Assembly: GCF_005281475.1 (NCBI RefSeq)
Contig: NZ_CP040106.1
Span: forward strand, 4,430,501-4,494,500
DNA: 64,000 nt
Source of the DNA: Echinicola rosea
Lineage (GTDB): Bacteria; Bacteroidota; Bacteroidia; Cytophagales; Cyclobacteriaceae
Direction of reading: 5' to 3'
Positions 8,919-49,084 of the stretch are shown in pieces. The stretch's first letter is position 1. Each line of letters begins with the position of its first letter. Made by a program: the position numbers and the translations under genes. A model generated the notes under the pieces. The model saw only the letters and a list, made by a program, of their open reading frames with translations, was not told where the DNA came from and searched no databases.

Positions 8919-9091
8919 TAACCTCAGTTCGATTATAAAACCGTTACTGCGAGGCTTAGAGGGTGGCCTGAGCGGGTGGAAGCCGTGGCAGCTCGCCGCG
9001 GCGAGTTGCCACACCCTTTTCCAACCCACATCCACCTATAAAGGGTTTGCAATGACGCTTTTAATGCTAAAAATAAGTCGAGCTCAGGTTA
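8919..9091 (+). repeat. MITE/REP-like element, copy A
   Basis: A 173-bp element between two convergent genes. It starts TAACCTCAGTTCGA and ends TCGAGCTCAGGTTA; the ends are inverted repeats matching at 12 of 14 positions. A 28-bp near-perfect GC-rich palindrome occupies 8985-9012 (outer arms GTGGCA and TGCCAC, core CTCGCCGCGGCGAG). Copies B (42562-42736) and C (48913-49084, inverted) share the whole sequence at roughly 80-90 percent by eye. There is no open frame inside, so it is non-autonomous. The rest of the 8765-9249 gap holds only a short hairpin at 9179. Confidence 0.85.
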
Positions 9092-9178
9092 GTAGTTTTC
9101 ATTATCAATTATTGTAATCGCTAGTCATTTACTAAAATCCTATTGTATTTCTCTTCGCTCCATAATAACCCCACCTAA

Positions 9179-9197
9179 CCTCTCCTAAAAGGGGAGG
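9179..9197. repeat. Short hairpin downstream of the FMN oxidoreductase gene
   Basis: CCTCTCC and GGGGAGG pair around a TAAAA loop with one G-U-type pair. This kind of hairpin is common between Bacteroidota genes. It lies 53 bp past the stop codon of the minus-strand gene ending at 9250, so it could help stabilise or end that transcript, although no clear U-tract follows. Confidence 0.4.
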
Positions 9198-9249
9198 ATC
9201 GTCTCAATACAATGTACATTTGTCTCAAGACTCACTTCTAAAAACCACA

Positions 9250-10758
9250 TCAATCCACCCTGTTCAGGACAGAATCAGGGAAATATTTATTGGTCAAGGC
9301 AACCATTTCATCTCCTTTTACAAACATACTGATGTCAATTTCATTGGTATGTTTGACACCACATGCTCCCAAAAGTTCTAGTACGGCATGCATGGTATTG
9401 CGATGGAAATTAAAGACCCTTTCTGCCTTATCTTCCACCACCAAGCCTTTTGTCAGCATTTTATTTTGTGTGGCGACACCTGTGGGGCAATCGTTGGTAT
9501 TGCAACGGAGTGCCTGAATGCAGCCTACTGTAAACATGAAGGCGCGGGCGGAATTGCACATATCAGCTCCCAGCGCCCGCATCCTCAATATAGAAAAAGC
9601 CGTGAGCACTTTGCCACTTGCAATTACTTTCACTTCTTGTCGCAGCCCAAATTTTTCCAAGGTCCTGTGCACAAAAATCAAGGCCGGCTCAAGTGGAATA
9701 CCGACTGAATCAGAAAACTCCAGCGGAGCAGCTCCTGTACCACCTTCGGCACCGTCCACCGTGATAAAATCCGGTACTACGCCATGCTGCTTCATGGCCG
9801 CACAGAGGTCAATAAACTCCTCCGTCCTACCGACGCAAAGCTTAAACCCGATGGGCTTGCCATCGCTAAGTTTCCTTAACTCACTGATAAACTTTATCAG
9901 GCCATCAGGATCTGAAAATTTCCGGTGGCTGGGCGGTGAAACAATCGTGGTATGGGGTTTTACACCCCTTATTTTAGCAATTTCGGGTGTATTTTTTTCC
10001 CCTGGAAGAACGCCCCCATGACCCGGCTTAGCTCCTTGGGATATTTTGATTTCTATCATCTTTACCTGCTCAAGGGCTGCATTTTGCTTAAATTTTTCAG
10101 GATCAAAATCGCCATCTTCCGTACGGCAGCCAAAATACCCGGTACCGATCTGCCAAACCAAATCTCCTCCACCTTCCAAGTGATAGGGAGAAAGCCCTCC
10201 TTCACCCGTATTATGATAAAAATGACCTTTCTTAGCTCCTCGGTTTAGGGCCATGATGGCATTTTTGCTCAGTGAACCAAAACTCATCGCTGAGACATTC
10301 AAAATCGAAGCACTGTACGGATGCTTGCAGGCCTTGCTGCCGACAATCACCCTGGGAATCTCTGAAACGGGCGGGGTAGCATATATCGAATGCCGAATGG
10401 CTTCGTAGTTTTCCCCCGTGATCTCCAGCTGTGTACCAAAGGGATGGGTATCATTCACATCCTTGGCGCGTCTGTACACCAAAGCCCTGTGGTTTCGGCT
10501 GAAAGGTTTACCGTCGGTAGTCCGTTCGATAAAATATTGCTGGATTTCTGGGGAGATCATCTCAAAGAAATACCTGAAATATCCCAAAATCGGAAAGTTC
10601 CTTAAAATGGTATGACGTTTCTGAAACCGATTGTAAATACCGATAATTACTATCGGTCCTATGATCAGAAAAGCCCAAATCCATTGTTCATAATAGTAAG
10701 CCAAGATGCCAAAGAATACAACTAGGATAATGGTGATATTATAAAAAAGATAACGCAT
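9250..10758 (-). CDS. FMN-binding glutamate synthase-family protein
   Basis: A 502-residue protein corresponding to the synthase (GltS) domain of glutamate synthase, without the glutamine amidotransferase domain. Residues 1-40 hold two hydrophobic segments, so it is probably membrane anchored. The barrel follows with the FMN-site motif GEGGLSPYH, the ISQGAKPGHGG and PSHRKFSDP segments, and the VDGAEGGTGAAP loop. The cysteine cluster C-x5-C-x4-C (in GCIQALRCNTNDCPTG) would bind a 3Fe-4S cluster. Upstream in-frame codons reach 10827, but the ATG at 10758 matches the family start and gives a clean membrane anchor. Physiological substrate unknown: stand-alone members lack a proven role. Confidence 0.9.
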   Translation of the reverse strand: MRYLFYNITIILVVFFGILAYYYEQWIWAFLIIGPIVIIGIYNRFQKRHTILRNFPILGYFRYFFEMISPEIQQYFIERTTDGKPFSRNHRALVYRRAKDVNDTHPFGTQLEITGENYEAIRHSIYATPPVSEIPRVIVGSKACKHPYSASILNVSAMSFGSLSKNAIMALNRGAKKGHFYHNTGEGGLSPYHLEGGGDLVWQIGTGYFGCRTEDGDFDPEKFKQNAALEQVKMIEIKISQGAKPGHGGVLPGEKNTPEIAKIRGVKPHTTIVSPPSHRKFSDPDGLIKFISELRKLSDGKPIGFKLCVGRTEEFIDLCAAMKQHGVVPDFITVDGAEGGTGAAPLEFSDSVGIPLEPALIFVHRTLEKFGLRQEVKVIASGKVLTAFSILRMRALGADMCNSARAFMFTVGCIQALRCNTNDCPTGVATQNKMLTKGLVVEDKAERVFNFHRNTMHAVLELLGACGVKHTNEIDISMFVKGDEMVALTNKYFPDSVLNRVD

Positions 10759-10968
10759 AATAATGGTGTTTACTGCTAAACTTGGGAAATAGGCATGCTG
10801 TTTTTTTAGGCTGCCTATTTTATTCACTCAGCTAAATATAAGCTTTTTGGAGGATGTGGAAAACTATTTAATATCCTAAACTATCAAATCGGCAAAAGGT
10901 TTTGATCACTAGGTAATGATAGTGGATATAAGCATCAATCTAAAAAAACACCTAAGATTCACCTCATA

Positions 10969-11934
10969 TCATTTCGAAGCCAAAAACTCTAGCAGCCTTT
11001 CCTCGACCCAGCTAAACTCCTTTCCCTTAACAGCGAACCCAGTATGTCCCCCCCTTTCAGGCATTTCCAAATGAATCAGTTTATGCTTTCTCGCCAACGC
11101 CACAGGATAGCATCGGTCAATCAGCAACGGATCATTTTTAGCGTTTACAATGAGCGTGGGAACCGTGATTTCTGCCATCCAATTGTCAGGGCTGACAGTC
11201 CGATAAAAGTCCTGACCATCCCTAAAACCGTGAAGCTTTGCCGTAAAATGGTCATCAAAAGTATCAAAATCCTTTACATTCGGGAGTAACGATTCGTCCA
11301 AAATGCCTGGAAACTGCTTGGCTTTCTCGGCCATCTTCACCTTTAGCTTGGCGAGGAACTTATTTTTATAAAAGATGTTTTTGGTCAATCGCAACGTCGC
11401 CGCACTGTCCGGTAAATTACAGGGAGTGCTATAGACCGCAGCCTTTTTTAAAGGCTGAGGAAGCGCACTTCCTTCTTCGCCGAGGTATTTTAGTGTTTGG
11501 GCACCTCCCATACTGATCCCAGCAAGGTAAATTTCAGCATAATCCTCCGTCGCCAGCACGTGCTCGATTACTGCTTTCAGATCATGTGAGGCGCCATGGT
11601 GGTAAAGTACTTGCTGACGGTTCATCTCCCCGCTGCACGAGCGATTGTTCCAGGCCAATGCATCTATCTGGTGTTGGTTAAACAATTTCACCAAACCGGT
11701 GACATAGTGTCTTTCGGAGCTACCTTCCAGCCCATGGGAAATGATCAGGAGCCTCTTGCTCCCCACCTTACTCCAATCCAAATCCAAAAAATCCCTGTCC
11801 GGCGTATCGATCCGTTCACGCTCGTAAACGACCCCCATAATCTTCCGAAATACACTGGGCAATATCGTTTCGAAGTGCCCATTAAAGTGATGTATAGGTG
11901 GGCCGGGATAGGAGGATTTTTTAATGATGGGCAT
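10969..11934 (-). CDS. YheT/EMB8-family alpha/beta hydrolase
   Basis: A 321-residue cytoplasmic hydrolase. The N-terminal pattern FNGHFETILPSVFR is the signature of the YheT family. The oxyanion SHGLEGSSERHY (residues 66-77), WNNRSCSGE (95-103), the nucleophile elbow GISMGG with Ser141, an Asp in VNAKNDPL and a late His in ERGGHTGF complete the Ser-Asp-His machinery. Family members are predicted carboxylesterases with poorly defined substrates. The gene is flanked by gaps of 210 and 363 bp and appears monocistronic. Confidence 0.92.
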   Translation of the reverse strand: MPIIKKSSYPGPPIHHFNGHFETILPSVFRKIMGVVYERERIDTPDRDFLDLDWSKVGSKRLLIISHGLEGSSERHYVTGLVKLFNQHQIDALAWNNRSCSGEMNRQQVLYHHGASHDLKAVIEHVLATEDYAEIYLAGISMGGAQTLKYLGEEGSALPQPLKKAAVYSTPCNLPDSAATLRLTKNIFYKNKFLAKLKVKMAEKAKQFPGILDESLLPNVKDFDTFDDHFTAKLHGFRDGQDFYRTVSPDNWMAEITVPTLIVNAKNDPLLIDRCYPVALARKHKLIHLEMPERGGHTGFAVKGKEFSWVEERLLEFLASK

Positions 11935-12297
11935 GGAAATTCAGCTCGTTAATGACCGACAAAGTAAATGGTCTTAGCCTATTGAAGCAATAAACTGGCT
12001 GAAAAATCACCATAAGTGAAGCGTATTTTTCCAGCCAAAATTTCGTCCCATAAACATTGTTCTATCTTCAACTATTCTGCTTGAACCAGAATCCACTCCG
12101 GTCCTGGGTATATAACGTTATATTATAAACAAATCCTGTTCGTGAAGAAATACAATTAGCAGCAGTAGTAATTAATTTACACCCCAATATGATCGAAAAA
12201 ATCAACTTATCAATACTTTACTAGTAAATTAATGGGCAAAAAAGTAGTGTGAAGTAGTAGCAGTTAGCAATCCTCTATTGGCAAACGAAATTTGCAC
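11935..12297. other. Gene-free interval
   Basis: 363 bp between two minus-strand genes. I see no open frame with coding character, no strong hairpin and no repeat shared with the rest of the window. It is AT-rich and probably carries the promoter of the hydrolase that starts at 11934. Confidence 0.6.
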
Positions 12298-12666
12298 TCA
12301 GTTACTCATTTCATAAATCTCGCGAAGCAATTCATCAATTGCCTTCAAAAACTGATCGTGATGGTCATTGACTTTATCCTCCGATTCGTCATGACGGATA
12401 ACCTGTTTTCCTTCATCCAATACTTGGCTGAGATTTCTTAATTCAAAAATGGTCACCGTAGGCCTTACCTTATGTCTGGCTTGGTGTAGCAAGTCCTCAT
12501 CGCGCTGAACCATTGCTTCTGTATATCTATCCTTTAATTCCTCTACAGAACTAGCAATAGCCTGAAGCAACTCCTTCTGAAATTCCAAATCTCCTTCTGA
12601 CATTTCATGGACTTTATCCATGTTGATATTCCTGCTTTTAATCATGTTAGGCATGGTGTTGATCAT
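12298..12666 (-). CDS. Hpt-like small helical protein
   Basis: A 122-residue, wholly helical and acidic protein. It resembles a histidine phosphotransfer domain: a helix carrying LLHQARHKVRPT with His65 is positioned like the phospho-accepting His of the H-x-L-K-G motif, although Arg68 replaces the usual Lys and Pro follows. The second long helix holds NLSQVLDEGKQVI. No receiver or kinase gene is adjacent. It begins two bases after the stop of the upstream flavoprotein gene and is probably co-transcribed with it. Several ATGs lie near the start; the first is used. A second Hpt-like protein is encoded at 50124. Confidence 0.65.
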   Translation of the reverse strand: MINTMPNMIKSRNINMDKVHEMSEGDLEFQKELLQAIASSVEELKDRYTEAMVQRDEDLLHQARHKVRPTVTIFELRNLSQVLDEGKQVIRHDESEDKVNDHHDQFLKAIDELLREIYEMSN

Positions 12667-12668
12667 AG

Positions 12669-13877
12669 TTAGTTATGTGTTGATTGTCCTGCAATATATC
12701 CCGTGGTCCAAGCAGCTTGAAAGTTAAAACCGCCTGTAATTCCATCAATATCTAAGACTTCTCCTGCAAAAAACAAATTCGGTACCAAGCGACTCTCCAT
12801 AGTAGTTGGATTTACTTCATTTAGGGCGATTCCCCCAGCGGTAACGAATTCCTCTTTGAAGGTTGTCTTTCCTTTCACTTGTAATATATAGCAAAAAATA
12901 TGCTGTTCCAAAATATTTATTTGTTTTTTGACACATTCCTGCCAAGTGAGTGAGCCGCTAATACCAGCACTTGCTAAAAGGTGCTCCCATAGTCTTTTGG
13001 GTAAATCAAACAGGGGATATCCATGCATTTTACGCTTGGGATGCTGATGCTTGTATGCTCTCAATGCCTCACGGATTTCTTCTTCTTTCATATCTGCTCT
13101 CCACCTTATGTGCACATTGGTGTGGTACATTTGCTCATTCAACCATTTTGCACCAAATGCTGACAATTTCAAAACCACTGGCCCACTGATTCCCCAGTGG
13201 GTGATCAGCAGTGGCCCTTGATAGGCCAATTTCGTCCCTTCTATCCTAACTAGGGCATTGGGTACGGTCAATCCTGGCATCTTTTTGAGGTCTGATTCAG
13301 GTGAATTAAATGTAAAAAGACTCGGGATAGGATCTACTACCTGGTGCCCCAGATCCCTGTACATTTGGTAACTCTTCGATTTTGGGCTTCCTCCTGCAGA
13401 AACGATCACTTTGTCCACCAACCTATCTTTTCCATTCACCTTAAGCATAAATCCTTCTCCCTTACGGACAATATGCTCCACAGAAGCCCGAAGCTCGACC
13501 ACTACCCCAAATTTCTCCGCTTCTTTACGAAGCAGGTCAATGATGGTCTGTGAACTGTCCGTGACGGGAAACATCCTACCGTCGCTCTCTGTCTTTAGTT
13601 TTACGCCCCTGGACTCGAACCACTCCACGGTATCCTTGGCATGGAATTTCATAAACGATTTCTTGAGAAACTTCTCTCCTCTTGGATAATGCTTTACCAA
13701 CGCTGATACTTGAAATGCTTCATGGGTCACGTTACACCTGCCACCCCCCGAGACTTTTACTTTCGACAGGGTCTTGCCTGTTTTCTCGAAGATGATCACG
13801 TTGTTTCCTTTTTGCGCTGCGTGAATAGCGGCAAAAAAACCAGCTGCCCCGCCACCAATTACTCCTATAACTCCCAT
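12669..13877 (-). CDS. HI0933-family flavoprotein (NAD(P)/FAD-dependent oxidoreductase)
   Basis: A 402-residue flavoprotein of the HI0933/YhiN family. GVIGGGAAGFFAAIHAAQKG at the N-terminus binds the ADP part of FAD. The motif VKVSGGGRCNVTH near residue 40 is diagnostic of this family, and the C-terminal block LFFAGEVLDIDGITGGFNFQ closes the FAD site. Members are annotated as aminoacetone oxidases or tRNA-modifying-like proteins, with little biochemical proof. The gene overlaps a good promoter just upstream (13884-13917) and is followed almost directly by the Hpt-like gene. Confidence 0.93.
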   Translation of the reverse strand: MGVIGVIGGGAAGFFAAIHAAQKGNNVIIFEKTGKTLSKVKVSGGGRCNVTHEAFQVSALVKHYPRGEKFLKKSFMKFHAKDTVEWFESRGVKLKTESDGRMFPVTDSSQTIIDLLRKEAEKFGVVVELRASVEHIVRKGEGFMLKVNGKDRLVDKVIVSAGGSPKSKSYQMYRDLGHQVVDPIPSLFTFNSPESDLKKMPGLTVPNALVRIEGTKLAYQGPLLITHWGISGPVVLKLSAFGAKWLNEQMYHTNVHIRWRADMKEEEIREALRAYKHQHPKRKMHGYPLFDLPKRLWEHLLASAGISGSLTWQECVKKQINILEQHIFCYILQVKGKTTFKEEFVTAGGIALNEVNPTTMESRLVPNLFFAGEVLDIDGITGGFNFQAAWTTGYIAGQSTHN

Positions 13878-13883
13878 AGTTTA

Positions 13884-13917
13884 CAAAAATATCCATCTCA
13901 CCCCTTATTTTAACAAA
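13884..13917 (-). promoter_or_regulatory. Bacteroidota-type promoter for the HI0933 flavoprotein gene
   Basis: On the minus strand TATTTTTG (plus 13884-13891) fits the -7 consensus TAnnTTTG, with a TTTG at plus 13914-13917 as -33 element and a spacer of 22 bases. The predicted transcription start lies within a few bases of the ATG at 13877, implying a very short leader. Confidence 0.4.
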
Positions 13918-13986
13918 TCATTACTGATTTCTCCTTTTAAATTAGGATGTATGGACTAAGATAGAAATATCTTGCAAAAATTAAAA

Positions 13987-15516
13987 CTATCTTCGCTTTC
14001 CAGTCAATGTCCCCAAGATACTTCTGGTTAACTCTCGGAAAATCGTCCGTCCGATCTGTCTCACCATGGTGTTTTTTGACAATTCTTCAAACAGGTTGTC
14101 CCCTTCTTTTGTGGCAGACTTGCCTGCACCCCTCGAAGCTACTTTTTCTTTGGCTGTTTCTTCAGCCAGCTTGAGTTTCGCCTCGATCATTTCATGCGCA
14201 CTCTCCCGGTCTATTTGCTGATTATATTTAGCAGCAATACTCGAACTATTGACCAATTCGTTGATCTCTCGCTGCGAAAGGACATCCATTCGTGAAATAG
14301 GTGCCCTGACCAATGTATGCGCCAGTGGTGTAGGAAGCCCCTTTTCACTTAAGGCTGTAACCAGCGCTTCTCCTATTCCCATTGAGGTGAGTACTGCTTT
14401 GGTATCATAGAATTCGGAAAGGGGATAATTTTCGGAGGTTTTGCCGATTGCCTTGCGGTCTTTGGCCGTAAAAGCCCTTAAAGCATGCTGGACTTTTAGC
14501 CCCAATTGCCCTAAGACCTTGTCGGGAATATCAGTGGGACTTTGGGTACAGAAATACACCCCTACGCCTTTTGACCTGATCAGTTTCACAATAGCCTCGA
14601 TCTTATCAATTAGGTCTTTGGAGGCATTATCAAATACAAGATGTGCCTCATCGATAAACAAACATAACTTGGGCTTATCCCCATCGCCCTGCTCGGGAAA
14701 GGTCTCATAAATCTCCGACAACAGGCTCAACATAAAGGTAGAAAATAGCTTTGGCCGATCCTGAATATCCGTCAAGCGAATTATGGAAACCACTCCTTTA
14801 CCGTCCTTTTGCCTTACCAAATCATTGACGTCAAAGGACACTTCTCCAAAAAATGATGTCGCTCCCTGCTGCTCCAATTCGATGATCTTACGCATGATGG
14901 TATTCACAGAGGCAGAGGACACTGCTCCAAACTCCTTTTTTATTTCTTCCTTGCCCTCATTGATCACATACTGTAAGACCTCTTTCAAGTCTTCCAAATC
15001 CAGCAGGGGTAATTGCTTGATATCACAAAACCTAAAAATCAAAGCGATGATCCCTTGTTGGGTACTGTTCAGGTCCAGGATCTGCGAAATCAGTACCGGA
15101 CCGAACTCCGTAACTGTAGCCCGCAGCCGCGTTCCAGGCTGCTGACTGATCGTCAGCAGCTCCACAGGAAGACCGGTGGCCTCATAATCCACCCCGATGG
15201 CATCACTTCGCCAGACAATGTGTTCGTTAGAGGCACCTGGACAAGCCAGACCAGAAAGATCACCTTTTAGGTCCATGAGCACGCTCGGGACGCCTTTCAG
15301 CGAAAGCTGCTCCGCTATCACTTGTAAGGTCTTGGTCTTACCAGTACCGGTAGCACCTGCGATCAAGCCATGGCGATTAAGCGTCTTAAGGGGGATCTTG
15401 ACAGTAGCTCCCTTTACTGGATCCTGTCCCAATACGCCTGTTCCTAAGATAAAAAAATCCTTTTTCGTTTGGTACCCTGCCGAAATACATTGCTGGAAAT
15501 CTTCTTTGGTCTTCAT
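13987..15516 (-). CDS. HerA-like ATPase, DUF853 (YjgR) family
   Basis: A 509-residue P-loop ATPase of the FtsK/HerA class. The Walker A motif GATGTGKT occupies residues 54-61 and the Walker B motif LCLFIDEAH has Asp289-Glu290. MDLKGDLSG (81-89) and the CTQSPTDIPDKVLGQLG block are characteristic of DUF853. The C-terminal tail contains a basic, low-complexity stretch. The frame is open to 15666, but the ATG at 15516 gives the family's N-terminus. Members are assumed to be DNA-translocating or hexameric motor ATPases of unknown process. There is no NurA-like nuclease next to it. Confidence 0.88.
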   Translation of the reverse strand: MKTKEDFQQCISAGYQTKKDFFILGTGVLGQDPVKGATVKIPLKTLNRHGLIAGATGTGKTKTLQVIAEQLSLKGVPSVLMDLKGDLSGLACPGASNEHIVWRSDAIGVDYEATGLPVELLTISQQPGTRLRATVTEFGPVLISQILDLNSTQQGIIALIFRFCDIKQLPLLDLEDLKEVLQYVINEGKEEIKKEFGAVSSASVNTIMRKIIELEQQGATSFFGEVSFDVNDLVRQKDGKGVVSIIRLTDIQDRPKLFSTFMLSLLSEIYETFPEQGDGDKPKLCLFIDEAHLVFDNASKDLIDKIEAIVKLIRSKGVGVYFCTQSPTDIPDKVLGQLGLKVQHALRAFTAKDRKAIGKTSENYPLSEFYDTKAVLTSMGIGEALVTALSEKGLPTPLAHTLVRAPISRMDVLSQREINELVNSSSIAAKYNQQIDRESAHEMIEAKLKLAEETAKEKVASRGAGKSATKEGDNLFEELSKNTMVRQIGRTIFRELTRSILGTLTGKRR

Positions 15517-15701
15517 ACGTAATGATTGAGCTGGTGACTGGACTTCAGAAACCCCAAAATACTTCATGATGAGGTCCTTGCTGACTGCCCTAAGTTTTTG
15601 TTCTTTACTTGATAAGCACTTTTTCATGAATCCATCAGCACAATTGGATGGAAAGCATATTCTCATGCTATGCCGAAAGATCGGTCATGCTAAAATGAAA
15701 A

Positions 15702-15729
15702 CACCTTGGACGACAAACCATCCAAGGTG
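15702..15729 (-). terminator. Terminator of the DUF4332 gene
   Basis: CACCTTGGA (15702-15710) and TCCAAGGTG (15721-15729) form a perfect 9-bp stem with a 10-base loop, 19 bp beyond the minus-strand stop at 15749. Read on the minus strand the stem is followed by TTTTCATTTT, a good U-tract. Confidence 0.75.
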
Positions 15730-15748
15730 CTTTATTTTATTACTGATA

Positions 15749-16156
15749 TCAATGGGTAACCACAGGATCCAATGATTTGGCCTGATCGATAAAATCTTCA
15801 ATTTGGCTCAAGGCAGGTACCACTCTGGTCAACTTTTTGGATTCATTTGTTTCGGTGAGCGCTTTGTGCAGATTTTCGGGATTTCGGGTACGAAGTTCTT
15901 TGACTGTGTCCACACCGGTGGCTTTCAGTAATTCTGCAAACTGGCTGGCGACACCGTTGATTCTAAAAAGATCAGCCATATTGACAAAGTCCAAGATCTT
16001 ACCTTCATCAATTCCTGTAGCTTCGGCCAGTGCTTTTCTCCCTTTCTTGGAAGCGCCTTTTTCCAATAATGCTTCCACGGTTTTTACTGCTGCTTTGGCC
16101 AGTTTTTCCTGGTTCACAGGTCCTATTCCTTCAATACTTGTGATGGTTTTTGACAT
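15749..16156 (-). CDS. DUF4332 helix-hairpin-helix protein
   Basis: A 135-residue cytoplasmic protein built of helix-hairpin-helix-like units. SIEGIGPVNQEKLAKA at residues 7-22 is a classical HhH signature (I-x-G-I-G-P), and a second unit follows around FRINGVASQFAELLKATGV (residues 65-83). This arrangement and length define DUF4332. HhH units bind DNA or mediate protein contacts; no specific role is known. It lies directly upstream of the HerA-like gene, with a terminator between them. Confidence 0.85.
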   Translation of the reverse strand: MSKTITSIEGIGPVNQEKLAKAAVKTVEALLEKGASKKGRKALAEATGIDEGKILDFVNMADLFRINGVASQFAELLKATGVDTVKELRTRNPENLHKALTETNESKKLTRVVPALSQIEDFIDQAKSLDPVVTH

Positions 16157-16303
16157 GGTTGTAAATGAATTATATAATTTGAAAATAAACAGTAAGTCGT
16201 GCTATGATAACATTCCGAAACATAAAGGAGCTGAAAACAACACGTGGATGACAGTACTCAATACGATCACCAATCAATAATTTTGTATCTAAACGCTTGA
16301 TGA

Positions 16304-17945: not shown

Positions 17946-17969
17946 TTCATCCCAACTTTTGCATTGATC

Positions 17970-41349: not shown

Positions 41350-41394
41350 GCGTGGTTGTATGTTTTCTTGGCTACTTAATTTTCTCTTAGGTCC

Positions 41395-41889: not shown

Positions 41890-42232
41890 ATATACGCGTT
41901 TTAAACTGCTAATATAAGGGTTAAGATTATAGTATGCCTGTTTCTGAAGTATTAGATTTTTGCTTCATTCTAGCCCCCTGATTTTGGGAAGACATAATCT
42001 ACTGACAATAAGTAGAATTTGAAAGAAAAGTGGTAGTAGTCCTCCTTGGTCAAGTTCAGGCAAGCACTCTTTGAAAGATCGTTTTTTGGAGAAATACATA
42101 GGTATATAGGGCGCCATAGAGGGAAGCTCCTACAGATTCAATGGCTCTCAAATCTCACGTCTCGCATCTCCTATCTAATGACTCCATATTCAGATAAGCT
42201 TATGCAGTTTCCAATGTACAAATCGGGCCAAA

Positions 42233-42322
42233 GTGCCAGCGGCACGATAAATTTTGTAACCTGCGGATTCATCCGCAGGAGCTCAAGCTCTCCTCTGCCT
42301 CCCGAAGGAGTGCCATCGGCAC
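42233..42322. repeat. Cluster of three short perfect hairpins
   Basis: GTGCC-AGC-GGCAC (42233-42245), CCTGCGGAT-TC-ATCCGCAGG (42260-42279) and GTGCC-ATC-GGCAC (42310-42322) are perfect inverted repeats within 90 bp; the first and third differ only in the loop. Such units are typical of decayed intergenic repeat arrays in Bacteroidota. Confidence 0.7.
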
Positions 42323-42357
42323 GGATCATAGCTATGCCTACACGAAAAGTGTTTTCC

Positions 42358-42533
42358 TTCAACCCGGATTATGCGTTAGGAATCGTAGTGAGAGCTGAAA
42401 TTGCAAGAAAATCAGTTAGTGTGGAGGCATTAGCGTAGCACCGCTACGGTTATGCCGAAAACTAAAGTGAAACGGCTGATTTTGAAGCAGTTTAAGGTCG
42501 CAACAGATAGGCTAATGCATATTCCGGGTTCAA
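42358..42533. repeat. Second MITE-like element (176 bp) with terminal inverted repeats
   Basis: The left end TTCAACCCGGATTATGC and the right end GCATATTCCGGGTTCAA are inverted repeats with two mismatches in 17, and similarity extends to the neighbouring GTTAG/CTAAT. The centre carries a hairpin, GGCATTAGCGTAGC (42426-42439) against GCTACGGTTATGCC (42443-42456), with two mismatches. Length and layout (ends plus central palindrome) parallel the 173-bp family, but the sequence is different. Its right end recurs, inverted, at 7201-7229. Confidence 0.65.
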
Positions 42534-42561
42534 TAAACTCTATGCGTTTGCCCAGTGCTAA

Positions 42562-42736
42562 TAACCTCAGTTCGATTATAAAACCGTCACTGCGAGGCTT
42601 GGAGGTAGGCCTGAGCGGGTGGAAGCCGTGGCAGTCTCAGTATTTCGGGATTGCCACACCCTTTTCCACCCCATATCCTCCTAAAAAGGGTTCGCAATGA
42701 CGCTTTTTATACTAAAATTAAGTCGAGCTCAGGTTA
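42562..42736 (+). repeat. MITE/REP-like element, copy B
   Basis: 175 bp with the same ends as copy A (TAACCTCAGTTCGA and TCGAGCTCAGGTTA) and the same orientation. The central palindrome is degenerate here: GTGGCA and TGCCAC arms remain, but the GC core is replaced by GTCTCAGTATTTCGGGAT. It lies in a divergent intergenic region, unlike A and C, and ends 14 bp before the promoter of the lipoprotein gene. Confidence 0.85.
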
Positions 42737-42749
42737 ATAGTAACCACAC

Positions 42750-42780
42750 TTGTATCCGCCCATTTCTTAAACTACCTTTG
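42750..42780 (+). promoter_or_regulatory. Bacteroidota-type promoter of the lipoprotein gene
   Basis: TTG at 42750-42752, a 20-base spacer, and TACCTTTG at 42773-42780 match the -33/-7 consensus exactly. The ATG follows 29 bp later. The promoter begins just outside the end of repeat copy B. Confidence 0.65.
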
Positions 42781-42809
42781 GCATCTAATCGTCAAGAAAC
42801 TTTCAACAG

Positions 42810-43202
42810 ATGAAAAGTAGCCTCCTTCCAGCGATCATTTTTGTGCTGTTTTTAGCCATTTTCGCTAGCTGTGTATCCAAGCTGGACACTGGAAACATCA
42901 ATATGGAAAATTGGAAAAATGACCGCTACGGCTGCAAAGGCCTTCGCATCCAAGACCTGACAGAGCTAGAATCCCTGAAAAACACGTTTCTGGGAGCGAC
43001 CAATCAAGAGCTTATTGTTACTTTTGGACGTCCTGACAGGGTCGAACTGCTGAATAAGAGTCAGAGCTTTTTCTTTTATTTCCTCGAACCCTCCGGCGAA
43101 TGTGACAATCATGAAAAAGAAAAAGAGCCCCTAAAGGCCCTTTTTCGTTTGAATGCCATAAATAAGGTCAGTGAGGTAACTATTACAACCCTTAATCCTT
43201 AA
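42810..43202 (+). CDS. Small predicted lipoprotein, SmpA/BamE-like fold possible
   Basis: A 130-residue protein with a signal sequence ending in FASC (Cys21), a plausible lipidation site. The mature part contains FLGATNQELIVTFGRPDRVE followed by a hydrophobic strand (FFFYFLEP). A helix with a G-x-t-x-x-x-v-x-x-x-f-G-x-P turn followed by strands is the pattern of SmpA/BamE-like domains. An outer-membrane-associated role would fit but is inferred from fold pattern only. Confidence 0.75.
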   Translation: MKSSLLPAIIFVLFLAIFASCVSKLDTGNINMENWKNDRYGCKGLRIQDLTELESLKNTFLGATNQELIVTFGRPDRVELLNKSQSFFFYFLEPSGECDNHEKEKEPLKALFRLNAINKVSEVTITTLNP

Positions 43203-43269
43203 GCATCGTTTTTTCATACCACGTCGATATAAATTGCTGATCGGTTCATGCATTTCAGTAAATCCCCGA

Positions 43270-44187
43270 CTAAAAACACAATGCCGCAGCACCTTGGGTA
43301 CCGGCATTATTGCCCAACGTGGCCTTTTTGAGCTGGAGGTCGTTGGTATAATAATGCGTAAGATATTGCCTTACGGTCTTTTCCAATGCGGGCATCATAA
43401 ATTCAAGGCCAGCTGAAATTCCTCCTCCAAAATAAACCTCATTGACATCCAAAATCCGAATGGTAGATACGATCGCCTCTCCAAGAATGCTGCCCACTTC
43501 TTCAAAAGTAAGCAAGGAGACTTCATTTCCTTCTCTTGCAGTATCTACCAGCAAATGTGTTCCTAATTCTTTATCCATCAGCTCGCCGGACTTTTGGGGA
43601 TAAGCATTGATCATTCGCTCAAGGATATTCAAAATGCCATTTCTACCAATAATGGTTTCCAAGCGGGCATTTCCCCTGGAAAGCATATGCCCCATTTCCA
43701 TAGCATTGCCGCGTGCTCCCTTAAAAATCTTCCCATCCACCACAGCGGCGCTGCCGATACCAGTTCCCATGGTGATAAACAGGAAATTAGCAGTAGGCTT
43801 GGAGGAGGCAAACTTAAATTCTCCCATGGCCGCTGCACTCGCGTCATTTTCAAGAAAAAAGCTTTTTTCTGGATACTTGTCCAAAAGCGCCCCTTTCAGG
43901 TCAAATCCGTCGAGTTCGGGGATCGCAGGAATCTCCAGTGTGGTGGTACGCGCTTTATTGATCAAGCCCGGCAGGCCGATGCCTACTTTATTGATATCAG
44001 GATATTTTGACAAGTACTTGCCAATAACATCCACAAAACAGGAATTAAAGCCTTTGGGGTCTTCCTTATAATGACTGGTATCTTCTTTATCAAAGGAAAC
44101 GATATCTCCTTGCTGGCTCACTTTACCAATTTTTAGGTGGGTTCCCCCTACATCTACACCCAGAAAGTGTTCGTTTTGATTACTCAT
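43270..44187 (-). CDS. ROK-family sugar kinase/polyphosphate glucokinase-like protein
   Basis: A 305-residue ASKHA-fold kinase. The phosphate-1 loop GVDVGGTHLKIGK (residues 9-21), GIGLPGLIN near 72, the catalytic Asp in FLENDASAAAMGE near 115 and the adenosine motif GTGIGSA (about 141-147) place it in ROK. The zinc-binding C-x-C-G-x-x-G-C motif of many ROK proteins is absent: after MEMGHMLSRGN the sequence reads ARLETIIGRNG. It may phosphorylate glucose or a related hexose, but the substrate is not certain. It appears monocistronic. Confidence 0.88.
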   Translation of the reverse strand: MSNQNEHFLGVDVGGTHLKIGKVSQQGDIVSFDKEDTSHYKEDPKGFNSCFVDVIGKYLSKYPDINKVGIGLPGLINKARTTTLEIPAIPELDGFDLKGALLDKYPEKSFFLENDASAAAMGEFKFASSKPTANFLFITMGTGIGSAAVVDGKIFKGARGNAMEMGHMLSRGNARLETIIGRNGILNILERMINAYPQKSGELMDKELGTHLLVDTAREGNEVSLLTFEEVGSILGEAIVSTIRILDVNEVYFGGGISAGLEFMMPALEKTVRQYLTHYYTNDLQLKKATLGNNAGTQGAAALCF

Positions 44188-44236
44188 GGTTTACGGTTTA
44201 ATAGGTTTTGGCTTCTAAAATAGTAAACAGATAAGC

Positions 44237-44725
44237 TTACTTCCTAAATTCTTTTGAAAAGTCTTGAAAGATTTCATGAACGGCAGGACAGACCAAGGTA
44301 TTTTTTAGGCTCAAACCTAAAATTCCGTGCATGTTTTTTCGGTTGGTATGGGGATATTCCCGGCATGCCTTGGGCCGTGATTCATACACAAAACACTTAT
44401 TGTCATTACCCAAAAATGGACATGGAGAACTATTCAACACAAAATCTCCCTCCTCATCCCGGTGTAAGTAGGTGTCGATAAATTCAGAGGATTTCATCCG
44501 CAGCTTCTTTGCCAATCGATCGATATCAATTTGCAGGAAAATAGGACTGGTGGTCTTACAACAATTGGCACACTCCAAGCAATCGATCTTTTCAAACTGT
44601 TCTTCATGCGCTGTTGCAAACTTCTCATCGAGCACTTTAGGCTTGACTTTTCGCAATCGCGTCCGGAGCTTTTTATGATAGCTATAATCTGAAAGGGATT
44701 TTTGTCTGAAATTTTCTAGGTCCAT
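44237..44725 (-). CDS. YkgJ-family cysteine-cluster protein
   Basis: A 162-residue cytoplasmic protein with a CxxCxxCC-type cluster (CLECANCCKT, about residues 49-58), then SPCPFLGNDNKCFVYESRPKAC further on. These eight or so cysteines in the order of the YkgJ family probably hold a zinc ion or iron-sulfur cluster. Function undefined. The N-terminus is basic and helical. It lies 49 bp upstream of the ROK gene on the same strand. Confidence 0.88.
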   Translation of the reverse strand: MDLENFRQKSLSDYSYHKKLRTRLRKVKPKVLDEKFATAHEEQFEKIDCLECANCCKTTSPIFLQIDIDRLAKKLRMKSSEFIDTYLHRDEEGDFVLNSSPCPFLGNDNKCFVYESRPKACREYPHTNRKNMHGILGLSLKNTLVCPAVHEIFQDFSKEFRK

Positions 44726-44925
44726 ACATCCTTGTGTTGAATTGTCCTATCGCCTAAAGGGTAATTCGTAGGTGACTACTCAATAGTCTTAAACGTTCAT
44801 CATTTACACACTCACCAAGCCCTTAAAACCATATTTTCACCTATCACTGGTATATTATAAGGTAAAATATTTTGATTTTACAATATTTTTCGTATTTTTA
44901 TTGGTAACATAAACCCAGTTTCGAC

Positions 44926-45285
44926 ATGAAAATGCATCCAAGTGAATTGTTCTTCTATTATATTCCTTCGCACACTATAGACAAGCAAGCGAGGGCATAT
45001 GCGCGATCGGTTTCTCGGTATGTCAATGAGATCAATATTGAGAAAGAGCACATCACCACGACAGGATGGAGAACTATCCTGGATAAGTTACACTTGCGGG
45101 CCAAGGACCTACTCAACCGGGCTCATCCGCAATACCAAAGTCACATTGCAGGTAAAACCTGGGATGACGAAAGCTGGCTGCACATATTGGTCAAACACCC
45201 TTACCTGCTCAAAGCTCCCATTGCCATCAAGCGGGGCAAAGCAGTGCTTTGTATAAAACCAAGCGAGATATTTAAGTTAAACTAA
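44926..45285 (+). CDS. ArsC/Spx-like thioredoxin-fold protein without active-site cysteines
   Basis: A 119-residue protein. The C-terminal part (WLHILVKHPYLLKAPIAIKRGKAVLC, from about residue 84) matches the conserved end of the ArsC/Spx/YffB family, with cis-Pro and the Arg-Gly region. However the N-terminal position of the redox Cys (normally CxxC or Cys-x3-x) reads YIPSHTIDKQ, without cysteine. It is therefore unlikely to be an arsenate reductase and may have a structural or regulatory role. An inverted repeat GTAAAAT-N6-ATTTTAC (44862-44881) lies in its upstream region. It overlaps the convergent CvfB gene by four bases. Confidence 0.8.
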   Translation: MKMHPSELFFYYIPSHTIDKQARAYARSVSRYVNEINIEKEHITTTGWRTILDKLHLRAKDLLNRAHPQYQSHIAGKTWDDESWLHILVKHPYLLKAPIAIKRGKAVLCIKPSEIFKLN

Positions 45286-46121
45286 CCTGCTAATGCAATA
45301 CCATCCGGCTTAATTTCGATTTTCCTACTTTTATATAGTTGACCAATGGATTGTTTGAAGTGCTTTTTACTCATCCCTAACGTCTTTTTGATTTCTTCGG
45401 GGGATGATTTATCATGAAGGGGCAAAAAACGCTTAACTTTTAAAAGGTTTAAGATTTTTTCTGCCCCTTCTTCATATTTCTGGCGACCGATTGGGGTAAG
45501 TTGTAAGTCCAGTTTCCCATCATCCCGACGCTTTTTGATAAAGGCTTTTACATTATCCCCTACCGCTATATCCTTAAAGGTTTCATTTCCATATAACAAT
45601 CCCTCGTAATGCTGATCAATAAGTACCTTAAATCCCAGATCTGTGGATTCAAATACCAGTCCATCTACCTCTTGTCCTTCTTCAAAAACAGCCGTATCAC
45701 TTAGCATAAAATCCTGGTACTTCGATACACCGATCAGGCGATTGGTTTTGAAATCCACACAGATCATGACCAAGTGCTGCTCCCCCTGCCTCATAGGCTT
45801 GCCCATTTCTGAAATGGGTACAAACAGGTCCTTTGGCAGTCCCCACTCCATAAAAGCCCCAAACTTGGTGACCTCTTTTACCTCCATTACGGCAAATTCA
45901 TCCACTAAGGCTACCGGTCTGTCGGTTATGGCCACGGGACGGTCTTCACTATCTGTATAGACAAACACCGCTACTTCCTCCCCTTCTTTTTCATCTCCCA
46001 AAAGGTAGCCCTTTGGCAATAACACTTCCTCCCCATTGGATAAATTTAAATATGCACCATTTGCTGTAAAGCGGGTTATCGGAAGGGTAGAAATCTTCCC
46101 AAGTTCTTTCATAGTATCCAT
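45282..46121 (-). CDS. CvfB/YitL-family S1-domain RNA-binding protein
   Basis: A 279-residue protein. Three S1/OB-type barrels can be followed: residues 5-60, 70-140 (VTKFGAFMEWGLPKDLFVPI, the most canonical S1 motif) and 150-210 (STDLGFKVLIDQHYEGLLYG). A C-terminal winged helix begins near 225, with SPEEIKKTLGMSKKHFKQSI. This order defines CvfB. Such proteins bind RNA and affect expression of virulence or stress genes in other bacteria. A -7-like TACCTTTG on the minus strand (plus 46128-46135) lies so close to the first ATG that the next ATG (46112) may be the true start. Confidence 0.9.
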   Translation of the reverse strand: MDTMKELGKISTLPITRFTANGAYLNLSNGEEVLLPKGYLLGDEKEGEEVAVFVYTDSEDRPVAITDRPVALVDEFAVMEVKEVTKFGAFMEWGLPKDLFVPISEMGKPMRQGEQHLVMICVDFKTNRLIGVSKYQDFMLSDTAVFEEGQEVDGLVFESTDLGFKVLIDQHYEGLLYGNETFKDIAVGDNVKAFIKKRRDDGKLDLQLTPIGRQKYEEGAEKILNLLKVKRFLPLHDKSSPEEIKKTLGMSKKHFKQSIGQLYKSRKIEIKPDGIALAG

Positions 46122-46176
46122 ATTCTACAAAGGTAACTAAAAGTGAGGAAATATAAGTAGGCCGTAGTTAAGTGAC

Positions 46177-46383
46177 CTAAGCCCAATCTGAATCTTCCAA
46201 TTTAAAAATTTCGCTTATTTCAACCTCAAAAATTTGAGCTAACCTCAATGCTAAAACTGTTGACGGGACATATTTACCTAATTCCATCGCATTAATGGTT
46301 TGTCTGCTAACTTTTGCCAATTTTGCCAATTCAGCTTGGGTAATATTTTTTTTTGCTCGCTCAACTTTAATACTATTCTTCAT
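46177..46383 (-). CDS. XRE-family small transcriptional regulator
   Basis: A 68-residue protein that is essentially one helix-turn-helix domain: ITQAELAKLAKVSRQTINAMELGKYVPS covers the two DNA-binding helices, followed by LALRLAQIFEVEISEIF, as in many small Cro/CI-like proteins. It starts 11 bases inside the 3' end of the upstream membrane-protein gene, so the two are translated together. In such pairs the regulator typically controls its own operon; the likely operator is the inverted repeat at 46874-46916. Confidence 0.88.
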   Translation of the reverse strand: MKNSIKVERAKKNITQAELAKLAKVSRQTINAMELGKYVPSTVLALRLAQIFEVEISEIFKLEDSDWA

Positions 46384-46849
46384 AGCTAATGGATCTTTTT
46401 AGTTTGGAAATTTGCCAGTTAAACCGAATAATGAAAAACAGCAAAATTGTAAACATGTTAAATATCATAACCCATAAAAAGGACAGCTCAAAAACGAATA
46501 AAAATAATATTAAAAGAATTGCGTAATTGAAATAAACAGCCCAAACCAACGATTCCAACCTAATTTTTGAAATATATTCATCTTCCAACTTTTCTTTAGA
46601 AAAGGCAACTAATAACGAACTCAATAATATTAGAACACCTAAAATCTCATTTAACACATTGTTCTTTACATTTCCAACAACACCCTTATCCCCGAAAGCA
46701 TCATTAATAAAAATAGCAGGGACATTAAAATCCAAATAATTAGGTTCAAGATCTAAAACAAGAGTTATCATACCAATAATTGCGGAGGGAATAAGGATTA
46801 ACCATCCAATTTTCTTGTACTTGTTAGGAAACAGATAATTTAATTTCAT
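46373..46849 (-). CDS. Four-helix membrane protein paired with an XRE regulator
   Basis: A 158-residue membrane protein with hydrophobic helices at about residues 14-32, 68-86, 100-120 and 124-144. The loop between helices 1 and 2 holds acidic and Asn-rich sequence (LEPNYLDFNVPAIFINDAFGD), probably exposed. The pairing of a short polytopic protein with a single-domain XRE regulator, the ORFs overlapping, is common in Bacteroidota, where the role is unknown. No catalytic motif was found. Confidence 0.78.
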   Translation of the reverse strand: MKLNYLFPNKYKKIGWLILIPSAIIGMITLVLDLEPNYLDFNVPAIFINDAFGDKGVVGNVKNNVLNEILGVLILLSSLLVAFSKEKLEDEYISKIRLESLVWAVYFNYAILLILFLFVFELSFLWVMIFNMFTILLFFIIRFNWQISKLKRSISYEE

Positions 46850-46871
46850 AATGCTCAGATTTAATTCGATT

Positions 46872-46916
46872 TAAATGTAAAGCATATAATTCATTTTGTC
46901 AAATAAACTTTACATT
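46872..46916 (-). promoter_or_regulatory. Promoter with flanking 9-bp inverted repeat (XRE operon)
   Basis: AATGTAAAG (46874-46882) and CTTTACATT (46908-46916) are perfect inverted repeats 25 bases apart. On the minus strand a TTTG at plus 46900-46903 and TACATTTA at plus 46872-46879 (one mismatch to TAnnTTTG) are spaced by 20 bases. One arm overlaps the -7 box and the other lies just upstream of the -33 box, so binding could block transcription. A further TTAAGTA/TACTTAA pair sits at 46915-46938. The rest of the 393-bp gap (to 47242) has no feature. Confidence 0.5.
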
Positions 46917-47242
46917 AAGTAATATAAACACTACTTAAATTTAGAAACACAGCTTATTACAAGGCAAGTGACTGACTTGAAAGCTTAGACCTAATTAGAA
47001 TGTCAAATGTAACCTTAAACCCGATGAATTAATCCGCCAACGTTAATCCAAGACCTGAACATGTTCCTCCCTCCTGCGGTGGAGAGGCTGGATAAGGGTA
47101 AAAGTGCATTGTGATGGAGCTGTTATACTTTTTGCCCAACACTTGCTAAACCCAGTGATAACATTTAGTTTTAATTAAAGAATAACAAACCAAGCTATAA
47201 ACCGCCCCAAGCGCTTTCATCCCTTGGGCATAATGTACTTTC

Positions 47243-48133
47243 ATGTCAAAAATAGCCGTAATAGGATCTGGCACCATGGGGAATGGTATCGCCCATGTAT
47301 TTGCCCAACATGACCATCAGGTATCGCTTATAGATACCAATGATAAAGCCTTGGAAAAAGCCTTGGCGACGATTTCCAAGAATTTGGACCGGCAGCTCTC
47401 CAAAGGGGTCATCCAGACAGAAGAAAAAGAGTCCGCATTGGCCAATATCACCACCCATACCGAATTGGCTGACGGCGTGAAAAACGCAGACATCGTGGTA
47501 GAAGCCGCCACCGAAGACACCAAACTAAAGCTGGATATTTTTCGCCAGCTGGATCAGCACTGCCCAAAAAACACCATTTTGGCCACGAACACTTCCTCCA
47601 TTTCCATCACCAAAATAGCCGCTGCTACTAACCGGCCGCAGCAAGTTATCGGGATGCACTTCATGAATCCAGTTCCTATCATGCCGCTAGTAGAAGTCAT
47701 CAAAGGATATAAAACGTCTAAAGAAACTACCCATCAGATCATGTCCATAGCAAAGGGACTGGAGAAGGAACCGGTAGCCGTAAATGACTACCCGGGTTTC
47801 GTCGCCAATCGTATCCTGATGCCCATGATCAATGAGGCGATTTACTCCCTGTATGAAGGTGTGGCTGGTGTACAGGAAATCGATACCGTCATGAAACTGG
47901 GCATGGCACATCCTATGGGACCACTGCAATTGGCAGACTTTATTGGACTGGATGTATGCCTTTCTATCCTAAATGTACTCTACGAAGGCCTGGGCAACCC
48001 GAAATACGCACCTTGCCCCTTACTGGTCAACATGGTCGAAGCAGGAAACAAGGGCGTCAAATCCGGGGAAGGTTTTTATAAGCACCTTTCAGGAAGTAAA
48101 GATCTTATCGTTTCAGAACGGTTTAAGAATTAA
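47243..48133 (+). CDS. 3-hydroxybutyryl-CoA dehydrogenase
   Basis: A 296-residue enzyme. The Rossmann motif VIGSGTMGNGIAHVFA (residues 5-20), LATNTSSISITKIA (about 113-126) with the catalytic Ser, GMHFMNPVPIMPLVEVI with the catalytic His, and the C-terminal helical domain with NDYPGFVANRI and GMAHPMGPLQLADFIGLD are standard. It reduces acetoacetyl-CoA or oxidises 3-hydroxybutyryl-CoA with NAD(P)H, in fatty-acid or butyrate/PHB metabolism. It stands alone, with the nucleoside kinase 114 bp downstream. Confidence 0.95.
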   Translation: MSKIAVIGSGTMGNGIAHVFAQHDHQVSLIDTNDKALEKALATISKNLDRQLSKGVIQTEEKESALANITTHTELADGVKNADIVVEAATEDTKLKLDIFRQLDQHCPKNTILATNTSSISITKIAAATNRPQQVIGMHFMNPVPIMPLVEVIKGYKTSKETTHQIMSIAKGLEKEPVAVNDYPGFVANRILMPMINEAIYSLYEGVAGVQEIDTVMKLGMAHPMGPLQLADFIGLDVCLSILNVLYEGLGNPKYAPCPLLVNMVEAGNKGVKSGEGFYKHLSGSKDLIVSERFKN

Positions 48134-48247
48134 GCAGTATTAATGTTAAGGAAAATGAATGTATTTTCTGGGGAAGCACACTCACCATTTGGCCATCCGG
48201 TGACACTCCACTCACTGACCAATATTCACGTAACTTAATCACTAACC

Positions 48248-48865
48248 ATGCACATCGCTATCGCTGGTAATATCGGAAGTGGCAAAACGACACTGGCAAA
48301 AAAACTTGGCCATCATTACGGCTGGAAGGTCGAGTTAGAAGATGTAGAGGCCAATCCTTATTTGGAGGATTTTTATGCGGACATGAAAAAGTGGTCCTTT
48401 CATCTACAGGTATATTTCCTGAACAGCCGCTTCAATCAAATTAAGGAAATTTCCCAATCATCGGTTTCGACGGTCCAAGACAGAACAATCTATGAAGACG
48501 CGTACATTTTTGCGGCAAACCTTCACCAGTCGGGATGCTTCGAAGACCGTGATTACCAAAATTACCTGAAGCTTTTCCATTCAATGATGGCGTATGCCTC
48601 GCCCCCTGACTTATTGATCTACCTTCGAGCAGATATTCCTAAACTGGTAAGCCAGATAGAAAAAAGAGGGCGTGATTACGAAACCACCATCAGCATCCAT
48701 TATCTCAGAAACCTCAATATGCACTATGAAGACTGGATCGGTCACTATGACAAAGGCAAGCTGCTCATCATTGATGTGAATGAACTGGATTTTGTTTCCA
48801 AAATGGAGGATTTTAGCTTCATCGTCAATCAGATCGACAGGGAAATCAATGGGCTGTTTTCTTGA
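48248..48865 (+). CDS. Deoxynucleoside kinase (deoxyguanosine/deoxyadenosine kinase-like)
   Basis: A 205-residue kinase. The P-loop GNIGSGKTT (residues 7-15), an ED-rich substrate segment (VELEDVEANPYLEDFY), the DRTIYEDAYIF motif (78-88) containing the DRS-like Asp-Arg, and the LID region KRGRDYETTI are the marks of dNKs of the dGK/dCK type. It salvages deoxynucleosides by phosphorylating the 5'-OH with ATP. A dispersed repeat element begins 47 bp after its stop. Confidence 0.92.
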   Translation: MHIAIAGNIGSGKTTLAKKLGHHYGWKVELEDVEANPYLEDFYADMKKWSFHLQVYFLNSRFNQIKEISQSSVSTVQDRTIYEDAYIFAANLHQSGCFEDRDYQNYLKLFHSMMAYASPPDLLIYLRADIPKLVSQIEKRGRDYETTISIHYLRNLNMHYEDWIGHYDKGKLLIIDVNELDFVSKMEDFSFIVNQIDREINGLFS

Positions 48866-48912
48866 TGCTTTTTATAGCGGAAAAACATGCCGTTGCTATC
48901 TTATGGACATAG

Positions 48913-49084
48913 TAACCTGAGCTCGACTTAATTTTAGTATAAAAAGCGTCATAGCGAACCCTTTTAAGGAGGATGTGGGTTGGAAAAGGATGTGGCAACT
49001 CGCCGCGGCGAGCTGCCACGGCTTCCACCCCTCATATCTCCCTCTAAGCCTCGCAGTGACGATTTTATAATCGAACTGAGGTTA
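48913..49084 (-). repeat. MITE/REP-like element, copy C (inverted)
   Basis: 172 bp. The plus strand starts TAACCTGAGCTCGA and ends TCGAACTGAGGTTA, so relative to copies A and B it is reversed. Its 28-bp palindrome (48992-49019) has the same GC-rich core as copy A. It sits between two convergent genes, 47 bp after the kinase and 33 bp before the stop of the minus-strand gene at 49118. Confidence 0.85.

Follow-up and report, generated by a model that had tools for sequence, protein, structure and literature searches.

The 64,000-bp window analyzed here (Echinicola rosea, contig NZ_CP040106.1, positions 4,430,501 to 4,494,500) contains three short repeats, which we call copies A, B, and C. They very probably belong to a family of IS982-type miniature inverted-repeat transposable elements (MITEs) served in trans by a partner transposase. 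Judged from its shared parts, each element appears to be a pair of palindromes tagged with CGTC and packed between IS982 ends. Outside the window, a small GIY-YIG nuclease is associated with CGTC-type palindromes, and this enzyme may act on or mobilize them.

Copies in the window and across the genome

All three copies are full length and carry the 14-bp ends that the initial annotation had described. The ends are real, but their first two bases turned out to belong to a 5-bp target duplication, and the element proper runs from ACCT to AGGT. The terminal inverted repeats are imperfect, reading ACCT(C/G)AG(T/C)TCGA(T/C)T. The copies and their parts are, in window positions:

8921 to 9089, plus strand: copy A, element proper (ACCT...AGGT), 169 bp, core type 1
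8916 to 8920: copy A, left target duplication TAGTA
9090 to 9094: copy A, right target duplication TAGTA
8985 to 9012: copy A, 28-bp core palindrome GTGGCAGCTCGCCGCGGCGAGTTGCCAC, one mismatched pair, matching itself on the opposite strand
42564 to 42734, plus strand: copy B, element proper, 171 bp, core type 2 (GTCTCAGTATTTCGGGAT)
42559 to 42563: copy B, left target duplication TAATA
42735 to 42739: copy B, right target duplication TAATA
42585 to 42595, plus strand: CGTC tag on the left side of the copy B core (CGTCACTGCGA)
42692 to 42702, minus strand: CGTC tag on the right side of the copy B core (CGTCATTGCGA on the minus strand)
48915 to 49082, minus strand: copy C, element proper, 168 bp, core type 1
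48910 to 48914: copy C, target duplication TACTA in minus-strand reading, one mismatch against the other side
49083 to 49087: copy C, target duplication TCCTA in minus-strand reading
48992 to 49019, minus strand: copy C, 28-bp core palindrome
48947 to 48957, plus strand: CGTC tag of the copy C core (CGTCATAGCGA)
49051 to 49061, minus strand: CGTC tag of the copy C core (CGTCACTGCGA on the minus strand)

Without mismatch, the end motif occurs in the window only at the six ends of these copies, and at up to 3 mismatches its frequency is at chance level (13 seen, 12.0 expected). An Rfam search of the window gave no match. Copies A and C lie between convergent genes, in agreement with the initial annotation, and copy B lies between divergent genes.

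The same annotation had proposed a mobile, nonautonomous repeat family, taking about five copies as the lower limit for such a family. Across the 6.06-Mb genome, a 35-base left-end pattern with at most 3 mismatches occurs at 98 places (43 forward and 55 reverse; reversed control 0), far above this limit, and the end motif with at most 1 mismatch occurs at 192 (control 3). With copy A as the query, 40 of 121 first-look candidates were scored, and all 40 aligned over at least 160 of its 173 bases. We extracted 98 distinct matches of at least 85 bits, 92 of them with both ends; the other 6 lacked a recognizable end on one side and were excluded from the duplication count. Element length ranges from 153 to 172 bp, with four internally deleted copies being shorter. 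Copy A matched 7 of 39 genomes, its own included, all of them Echinicola; one of the congeners, G009, is 100% identical to Echinicola shivajiensis over 3615 bp. In the congeners G002 and G003, related elements have these ends too, mostly between flanks resembling TANTA.

Target duplications and empty sites

The extent of the element was determined by an offset scan over the 74 copies with nonrepeat flanks, with the 18 of 92 that have repeat flanks left out. With the ends placed at ACCT...AGGT, the flanks were 90.8% identical over 5 bp, compared with 81.1% for the best 6-bp setting and 79.5% or 77.0% when the 5-bp setting was shifted by one base. The duplication was exact in 53 of these 74 copies and had one mismatch in 15; among all 92, the number of agreeing bases was 5, 4, 3, 2, and 1 in 66, 15, 6, 3, and 2 copies, respectively. 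The consensus is TANTA, and the commonest exact duplications are TATTA (25), TAATA (10), and TAGTA (4).

Empty sites in relatives, which the initial annotation had suggested inspecting, were sought, and the site of copy B is exactly empty in congener G010. A single TAATA is read through there (...GTGCTAATAGTAACC, as opposed to ...GTGCTAATA, the element, and TAATAGTAACC at the occupied site), which shows the 5-bp duplication directly. At the site of copy C, congener G004 has 42 bp between the aligned flanks rather than 259, at a boundary that lacks a base-by-base alignment. In addition, 16 copies sit at the same TATTA of a larger genomic repeat and have at least one of its flanks in common; in three of them, the left flank differs. 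A member of this multicopy repeat, which is several hundred bases long, occupies about 6600 to 7240 of the window, and the target within it is free:

6814 to 6833, plus strand: unoccupied copy of the larger genomic repeat (GGGACTTATTAACTGAATCC); other repeat copies hold the element at this TATTA

Ends shared with an IS982-family element

A search for the transposase domain PF13612 in 11 genomes returned seven matches in congener G004 and none in E. rosea itself (G000) or the nine others. The G004 matches correspond to an IS982-family element of 1131 bp present in seven copies, with a 298-aa transposase (PF13612, E 2.4e-71) and ends reading ACCTGAGTTCGATT on both sides. All seven copies are flanked by exact 5-bp duplications (TATTA, TTATT, TATCA, TAGTA, TTGTA, TGTGA, and AATTA). 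Its right end, ACCTGAGTTCGATTTTAAAAC, equals the left end of copy A, ACCTCAGTTCGATTATAAAAC, at 19 of 21 bases.

According to passages of PMC7335449, elements of the IS982 family are about 1 kb long, have ends that start with 5' AC, generate direct repeats of variable length, and in the listed cases encode transposases near 290 to 330 aa; these passages make no mention of MITEs. The Echinicola repeats likewise have IS982-matching ends starting with 5' AC and short direct repeats. They differ from the family in having no transposase gene: they are short, leave no room for one, and occur in many copies, as expected of an IS982-derived MITE.

Cardinium, which belongs to the Bacteroidota, offers a precedent. 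Its element MITECca01 (strain cOegib), derived from the IS982-family ISCca4, also has IS982-family ends and no transposase gene, and passages of PMC9769881 describe it as about 240 bp long, present in 169 copies, and sharing with the IS no more than a short segment adjoining the ends. Unlike in Echinicola, where the IS982 element was found only in a congener, intact parental copies are described in the same Cardinium genome, and CGTC palindromes are not mentioned in those passages. We favor the IS982-type reading because the G004 ends match, because of the family features (PMC7335449, in the passages cited), and because of the Cardinium case (PMC9769881, likewise).

A DDE transposase of the IS982 family would have recognized the ends in trans, inserted the element at TANTA-like sites, and duplicated 5 bp. 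With PF13612 as the probe, no parental IS982 was detected in the E. rosea genome. A parental element alongside its MITE is usual but not required, as partners can be lost. We infer that this has happened here and that the family is presumably now immobile in its own genome.

Several points weigh against this reading. The duplication has at most three agreeing bases in 11 of 92 copies, and the 18 copies with repeat flanks need not be independent insertions. The MITE and IS ends diverge past about 20 bp. No IS982 gene was found in the E. rosea genome, so the case for movement in trans comes from a congener, and the transposase search covered only three families (PF13701, PF01609, and PF13612). 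As to how the element was assembled, a CGTC pair may have entered an IS982 derivative, or IS982 ends may have been captured around a pair.

Other candidate partners fit less well. The only PF13701 (IS1380) match above the cut-off, in G004, belongs to an element with CC-type ends and a TTCAA duplication, which do not fit. PF01609 gave 53 matches in 5 of 11 genomes; at the 30 loci examined, the ends differ where found, mostly with 9-bp duplications. In the E. rosea genome, the 6 of 7 PF01609 loci examined lack the MITE ends, and with PF13612 giving no match there either, these searches detected no matching transposase. A search of congeners for the end pairs as part of an autonomous element yielded, among the matches listed, only MITE-sized pairs and one pair in G009, one end of which lies inside a long open reading frame (ORF).

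The initial annotation had read the repeats as TA-bounded and mariner-like, yet the TA of the ends is duplicated target, so this assignment falls: a MITE of the Tc1/mariner-IS630 type, to which the TA...TA reading of the ends and a TA duplication would belong, is highly improbable given a duplication of 5 bp rather than TA at ACCT/AGGT, its confirmation at the empty site, and ends that match IS982.

Two further insertions lie in or beside copies of the element. At G000:2936454, an IS with a PF01609 transposase and a 9-bp duplication has inserted into one MITE copy, and three further copies of this IS are present in the genome. Adjoining copy B is a second, unrelated MITE-like insert of 166 bp (window 42363 to 42528, ends CCCGGATTATGC), flanked by a TTCAA duplication at 42358 to 42362 and 42529 to 42533 and absent from G010; its ends resemble those of the IS1380-family element in G004.

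Two kinds of core

The core of copy B, which the initial annotation took for a decayed palindrome, is instead a second kind of core. By sequence, 58 of the 92 copies have the GC-rich core or a variant of it, and 34 have the second kind or a variant; a script-based split gave 57 and 35, with one decayed GC-rich core placed in the second group. Four copies lack about 66 central positions at the same junction and have exact duplications of their own (TAATA, TTTTA, TAAGA, and CATTA). The core palindrome is thus dispensable for movement and would be cargo where IS982 movement is concerned.

One could instead regard the hairpin as a selected RNA or terminator element whose mobility is incidental. 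The fold z-scores, from −3.9 to −8.2, are compatible with this (A −5.2, A on the other strand −3.9, B −6.2, and C −8.2), as is the better folding of the plus strand in 81 of 92 copies. Gene context also leans this way: of the 85 copies whose flanks could be called, 37 are in convergent gaps, 37 in tandem gaps, and 10 in divergent gaps, with 1 at an edge, compared with 37 convergent, 86 tandem, and 42 divergent among all 165 gaps of at least 60 bp in 50 loci, element gaps included. These contexts come from crude ORF calling, to which genes broken by an insertion are invisible, and a convergent excess is also expected if insertions there do little harm. At paired positions, pair-keeping G-U and pair-breaking A-C changes are equally frequent by distinct pair types (17 vs 17 and 20 vs 20; by copies, 31 vs 56 and 36 vs 30), and each subfamily has one compensatory swap. 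No selection on the RNA fold is therefore visible among the copies after insertion, and we consider this explanation improbable.

The CGTC tag

The cores of B and C are bounded by CGTCACTGCGA and CGTCATWGCGA, facing outward, and the left tag of copy A reads CGTT. The resemblance to repetitive extragenic palindromic (REP) sequences pointed out in the initial annotation is therefore genuine but of another kind, as the internal tag is CGTC and not the GTAG of REPs linked to REP-associated tyrosine transposases (RAYTs). GTAG REPs are partnered with RAYTs. Movement by such a transposase, as for REPs and bacterial interspersed mosaic elements, would suit the strong internal palindrome and the high copy number, but the element duplicates its target and has fixed inverted ends, both of which suggest a DDE transposase; together with the tag, this makes movement by a RAYT very unlikely.

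A CGTC-tagged REP superfamily has been described (Di Nocera 2013, PMC3733652). In the passages concerned, CGTC stands at one end of the palindrome, the repeats are mostly dimers with stems of 8 to 9 bp and loops of 4 to 5 nt, and they are known from Bacteroidetes, Neisseriae, Azospirillum lipoferum, Novosphingobium, and others, apparently without a dedicated transposase. Echinicola cores B and C share the CGTC tag at the outer ends of a palindrome pair, but IS982 ends surround this pair, which is also longer and imperfect.

Counts of CGTCAYWGCGA in the genus were 155 in G000, 125 in G003, 66 in G010, 62 in G001, 58 in G004, 57 in G002, 30 in G008, 18 in G006, 12 each in G007 and G009, and 5 in G005 (reversed controls 0 to 5 per strand). 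An IS982-type end lies just outside the motif 106 times in G000, 40 in G010, 15 in G003, 5 in G002, and once each in G004 and G007, and never in G001, G008, G006, G009, or G005 (controls 0). The palindromes thus stand alone in the genus and are enclosed by IS982 ends in some species. In G002, 26 CGTC motifs are clustered within 6.6 kb (C1:162785-169371).

A GIY-YIG nuclease beside CGTC palindromes

The E. rosea genome contains a 750-bp relative of the MITE (G000:2248774-2249523) with IS982-type ends, the duplication TATAA, and an intact 99-aa ORF with CGTC motifs to its left and right. Over 144 bp, the right part of this relative matches copy A at 82% identity. The ORF encodes a GIY-YIG nuclease (PF01541, E 1.8e-14; its NCBIfam match is weak and below the cut-off). 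This locus has the same kind of core as the MITE, and a search for a 6-bp stem following GTCA (loop up to 28) found none up to 300 bp from the gene, so we call the core CGTC-tagged and do not place it in any of the four families described in PMC3733652.

Relatives of the nuclease at E of at most 1e-6 occur in 77 of 118 Cyclobacteriaceae genomes, and we examined 70 loci, 30 from the search and 40 further down its list. At an identity of at least 55%, a cut picked after the list was known, CGTCAYNGCGA lies within 500 bp of the gene at 19 of 27 loci, 14 of them on both sides; the corresponding figures are 1 of 37 at 45% to 55% identity and 0 of 6 below 45%. Motif density falls in parallel, from 109 in 82.8 kb to 1 in 119.7 kb and 0 in 22.7 kb, and among the controls, 17 regions from these genomes totaling 337 kb had 1 motif and 80 named loci totaling 1,426 kb had 3. 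Repeats of a broader kind are also common at these loci: locally repeated 12-mers cover at least 10% of the 400-bp flanks at 55 of 70 loci compared with 7 of 340 control windows, and many of 15 repeat-flank examples have GTCA or TGAC adjoining a palindrome. Either tag test was positive at 39 of 70 loci vs 16 of 340 control windows, and on both sides at 29 of 70 vs 0 of 340.

The nuclease also extends beyond this family. In a plasmid collection, 33 records, several of them chromosome-sized, carry a relative: Rhizobium (9), Sphingobium (7), Shinella (4), Sinorhizobium (4), and Neisseria (2), as well as Azospirillum, Novosphingobium, Photobacterium, Aeromonas, Planktothrix, and Spirosoma. Phage records had no relative of the nuclease. 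Flanks were tested in 16 of the 33 records, mostly Proteobacteria, leaving out 17 that include many near-identical ones. CGTC stem-loops lie within 600 bp of the gene at 11 of 16 loci (38 in 23.5 kb near the gene vs 53 in 256 kb far from it), and a wider tag test was positive at 14 of 16, 8 on both sides. They are absent near the gene at the remaining 5 of 16 loci (Planktothrix, Spirosoma, Sinorhizobium K101, Rhizobium K1/93, and R. tumorigenes). At the R. tumorigenes locus, the pairs are tagged with CCTC; two are present there, compared with one at that place in a related plasmid.

At five loci (A. caviae, Neorhizobium, Novosphingobium, Rhizobium CIAT894, and Shinella PSBB067), a forward CGTC copy 53 to 91 bp upstream and an inverted copy 32 to 92 bp downstream bracket the gene, with CGTC outward. 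The Sphingobium locus shows the same bracketing, and the Azospirillum locus has a whole CGTC pair on each side. In Azospirillum lipoferum, the gene and its CGTC pairs stand between sufB and sufC of the suf operon (locus L489, 10001 to 10294), and three relatives lack the gene there. The gene of a Planktothrix plasmid lies inside a DISARM defense cluster with TGACA-type repeats around it (L481, 9986 to 10270).

Finally, we built a tree of 86 nucleases from 99 columns and assigned each to a flank class: CGTCAYNGCGA (21), GTCA hairpin (33), or none (32). The classes require 17 changes on the tree, compared with a shuffled mean of 40.0, and 0 of 200 shuffles were as low; resolution is lacking at many forks, and some of the clustering comes from near-copies.

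What the nuclease may do

On one reading, which we hold to be about evenly balanced between right and wrong, small single-domain GIY-YIG nucleases would be dedicated partners of the CGTC superfamily, much as RAYTs partner GTAG REPs. The ancestral mobile unit would be a CGTC palindrome, the nuclease gene, and an inverted CGTC palindrome, about 380 to 430 bp in clean cases, and palindrome pairs without the gene would be miniature copies of it. In Echinicola, such a pair would have been enclosed by IS982 ends to give the MITE of the window, spreadable by two different enzyme systems.

A free-standing homing endonuclease is a possible alternative, although we lean against it. In this scenario, the GIY-YIG enzyme cuts CGTC palindromes and its gene is copied into them, so that it is not their spreader. 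The gene is indeed bracketed by inverted CGTC palindromes at several loci, and at an orthologous Sphingobium site, where others have the bracketed gene, a related plasmid contains just one short CGTC...GACG palindrome (L500, 1034 to 1062). This palindrome may be the target, but it could equally be a deletion product. We found no exact empty site of the nuclease unit, as gene-less Azospirillum, Sphingobium, Shinella, and Novosphingobium relatives align inexactly at the boundaries. By itself, homing also leaves the abundance of palindromes and the rarity of the gene unexplained.

Chance, or a common preference for intergenic space, could also place the gene and palindromes together: some records are rich in CGTC palindromes (the Photobacterium locus has 18 lying far from the gene), the 55% cut was chosen late, and the reversed tag, too, is slightly enriched next to the gene (4 of 20 gaps vs 6 of 83 others), so part of the signal reflects palindromes in general. 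When the comparison is limited to intergenic gaps at ten loci, CGTC hairpins are still found in 11 of 20 gaps beside the nuclease vs 3 of 83 others (Fisher 2.3e-7), and with the Cyclobacteriaceae contrast within the same genomes (109 motifs in 82.8 kb vs 1 in 337 kb) and the clustering of palindrome classes on the nuclease tree, this explanation is very hard to sustain.

The 99-aa protein belongs to the GIY-YIG family (PF01541), for which no role in palindromic repeats was found among the open-licence papers listed. Nor did the open-licence papers searched contain a report of the link between nuclease and palindromes, which seems not to have been described before.

Implications

The MITE illustrates how a borrowed transposase can spread a palindrome and later go missing from the genome. 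The wider nuclease result is the more important one. Several phyla have CGTC palindromes, and the nuclease is a concrete, testable candidate for the missing partner enzyme, a gap stated in the conclusion of PMC3733652. The association is clade-specific and often two-sided, and it covers Bacteroidota as well as alpha-, beta-, and gammaproteobacterial records. Proteins annotated as "GIY-YIG nuclease family," of which at least 8000 scored matches were obtained, would thereby gain a testable role.

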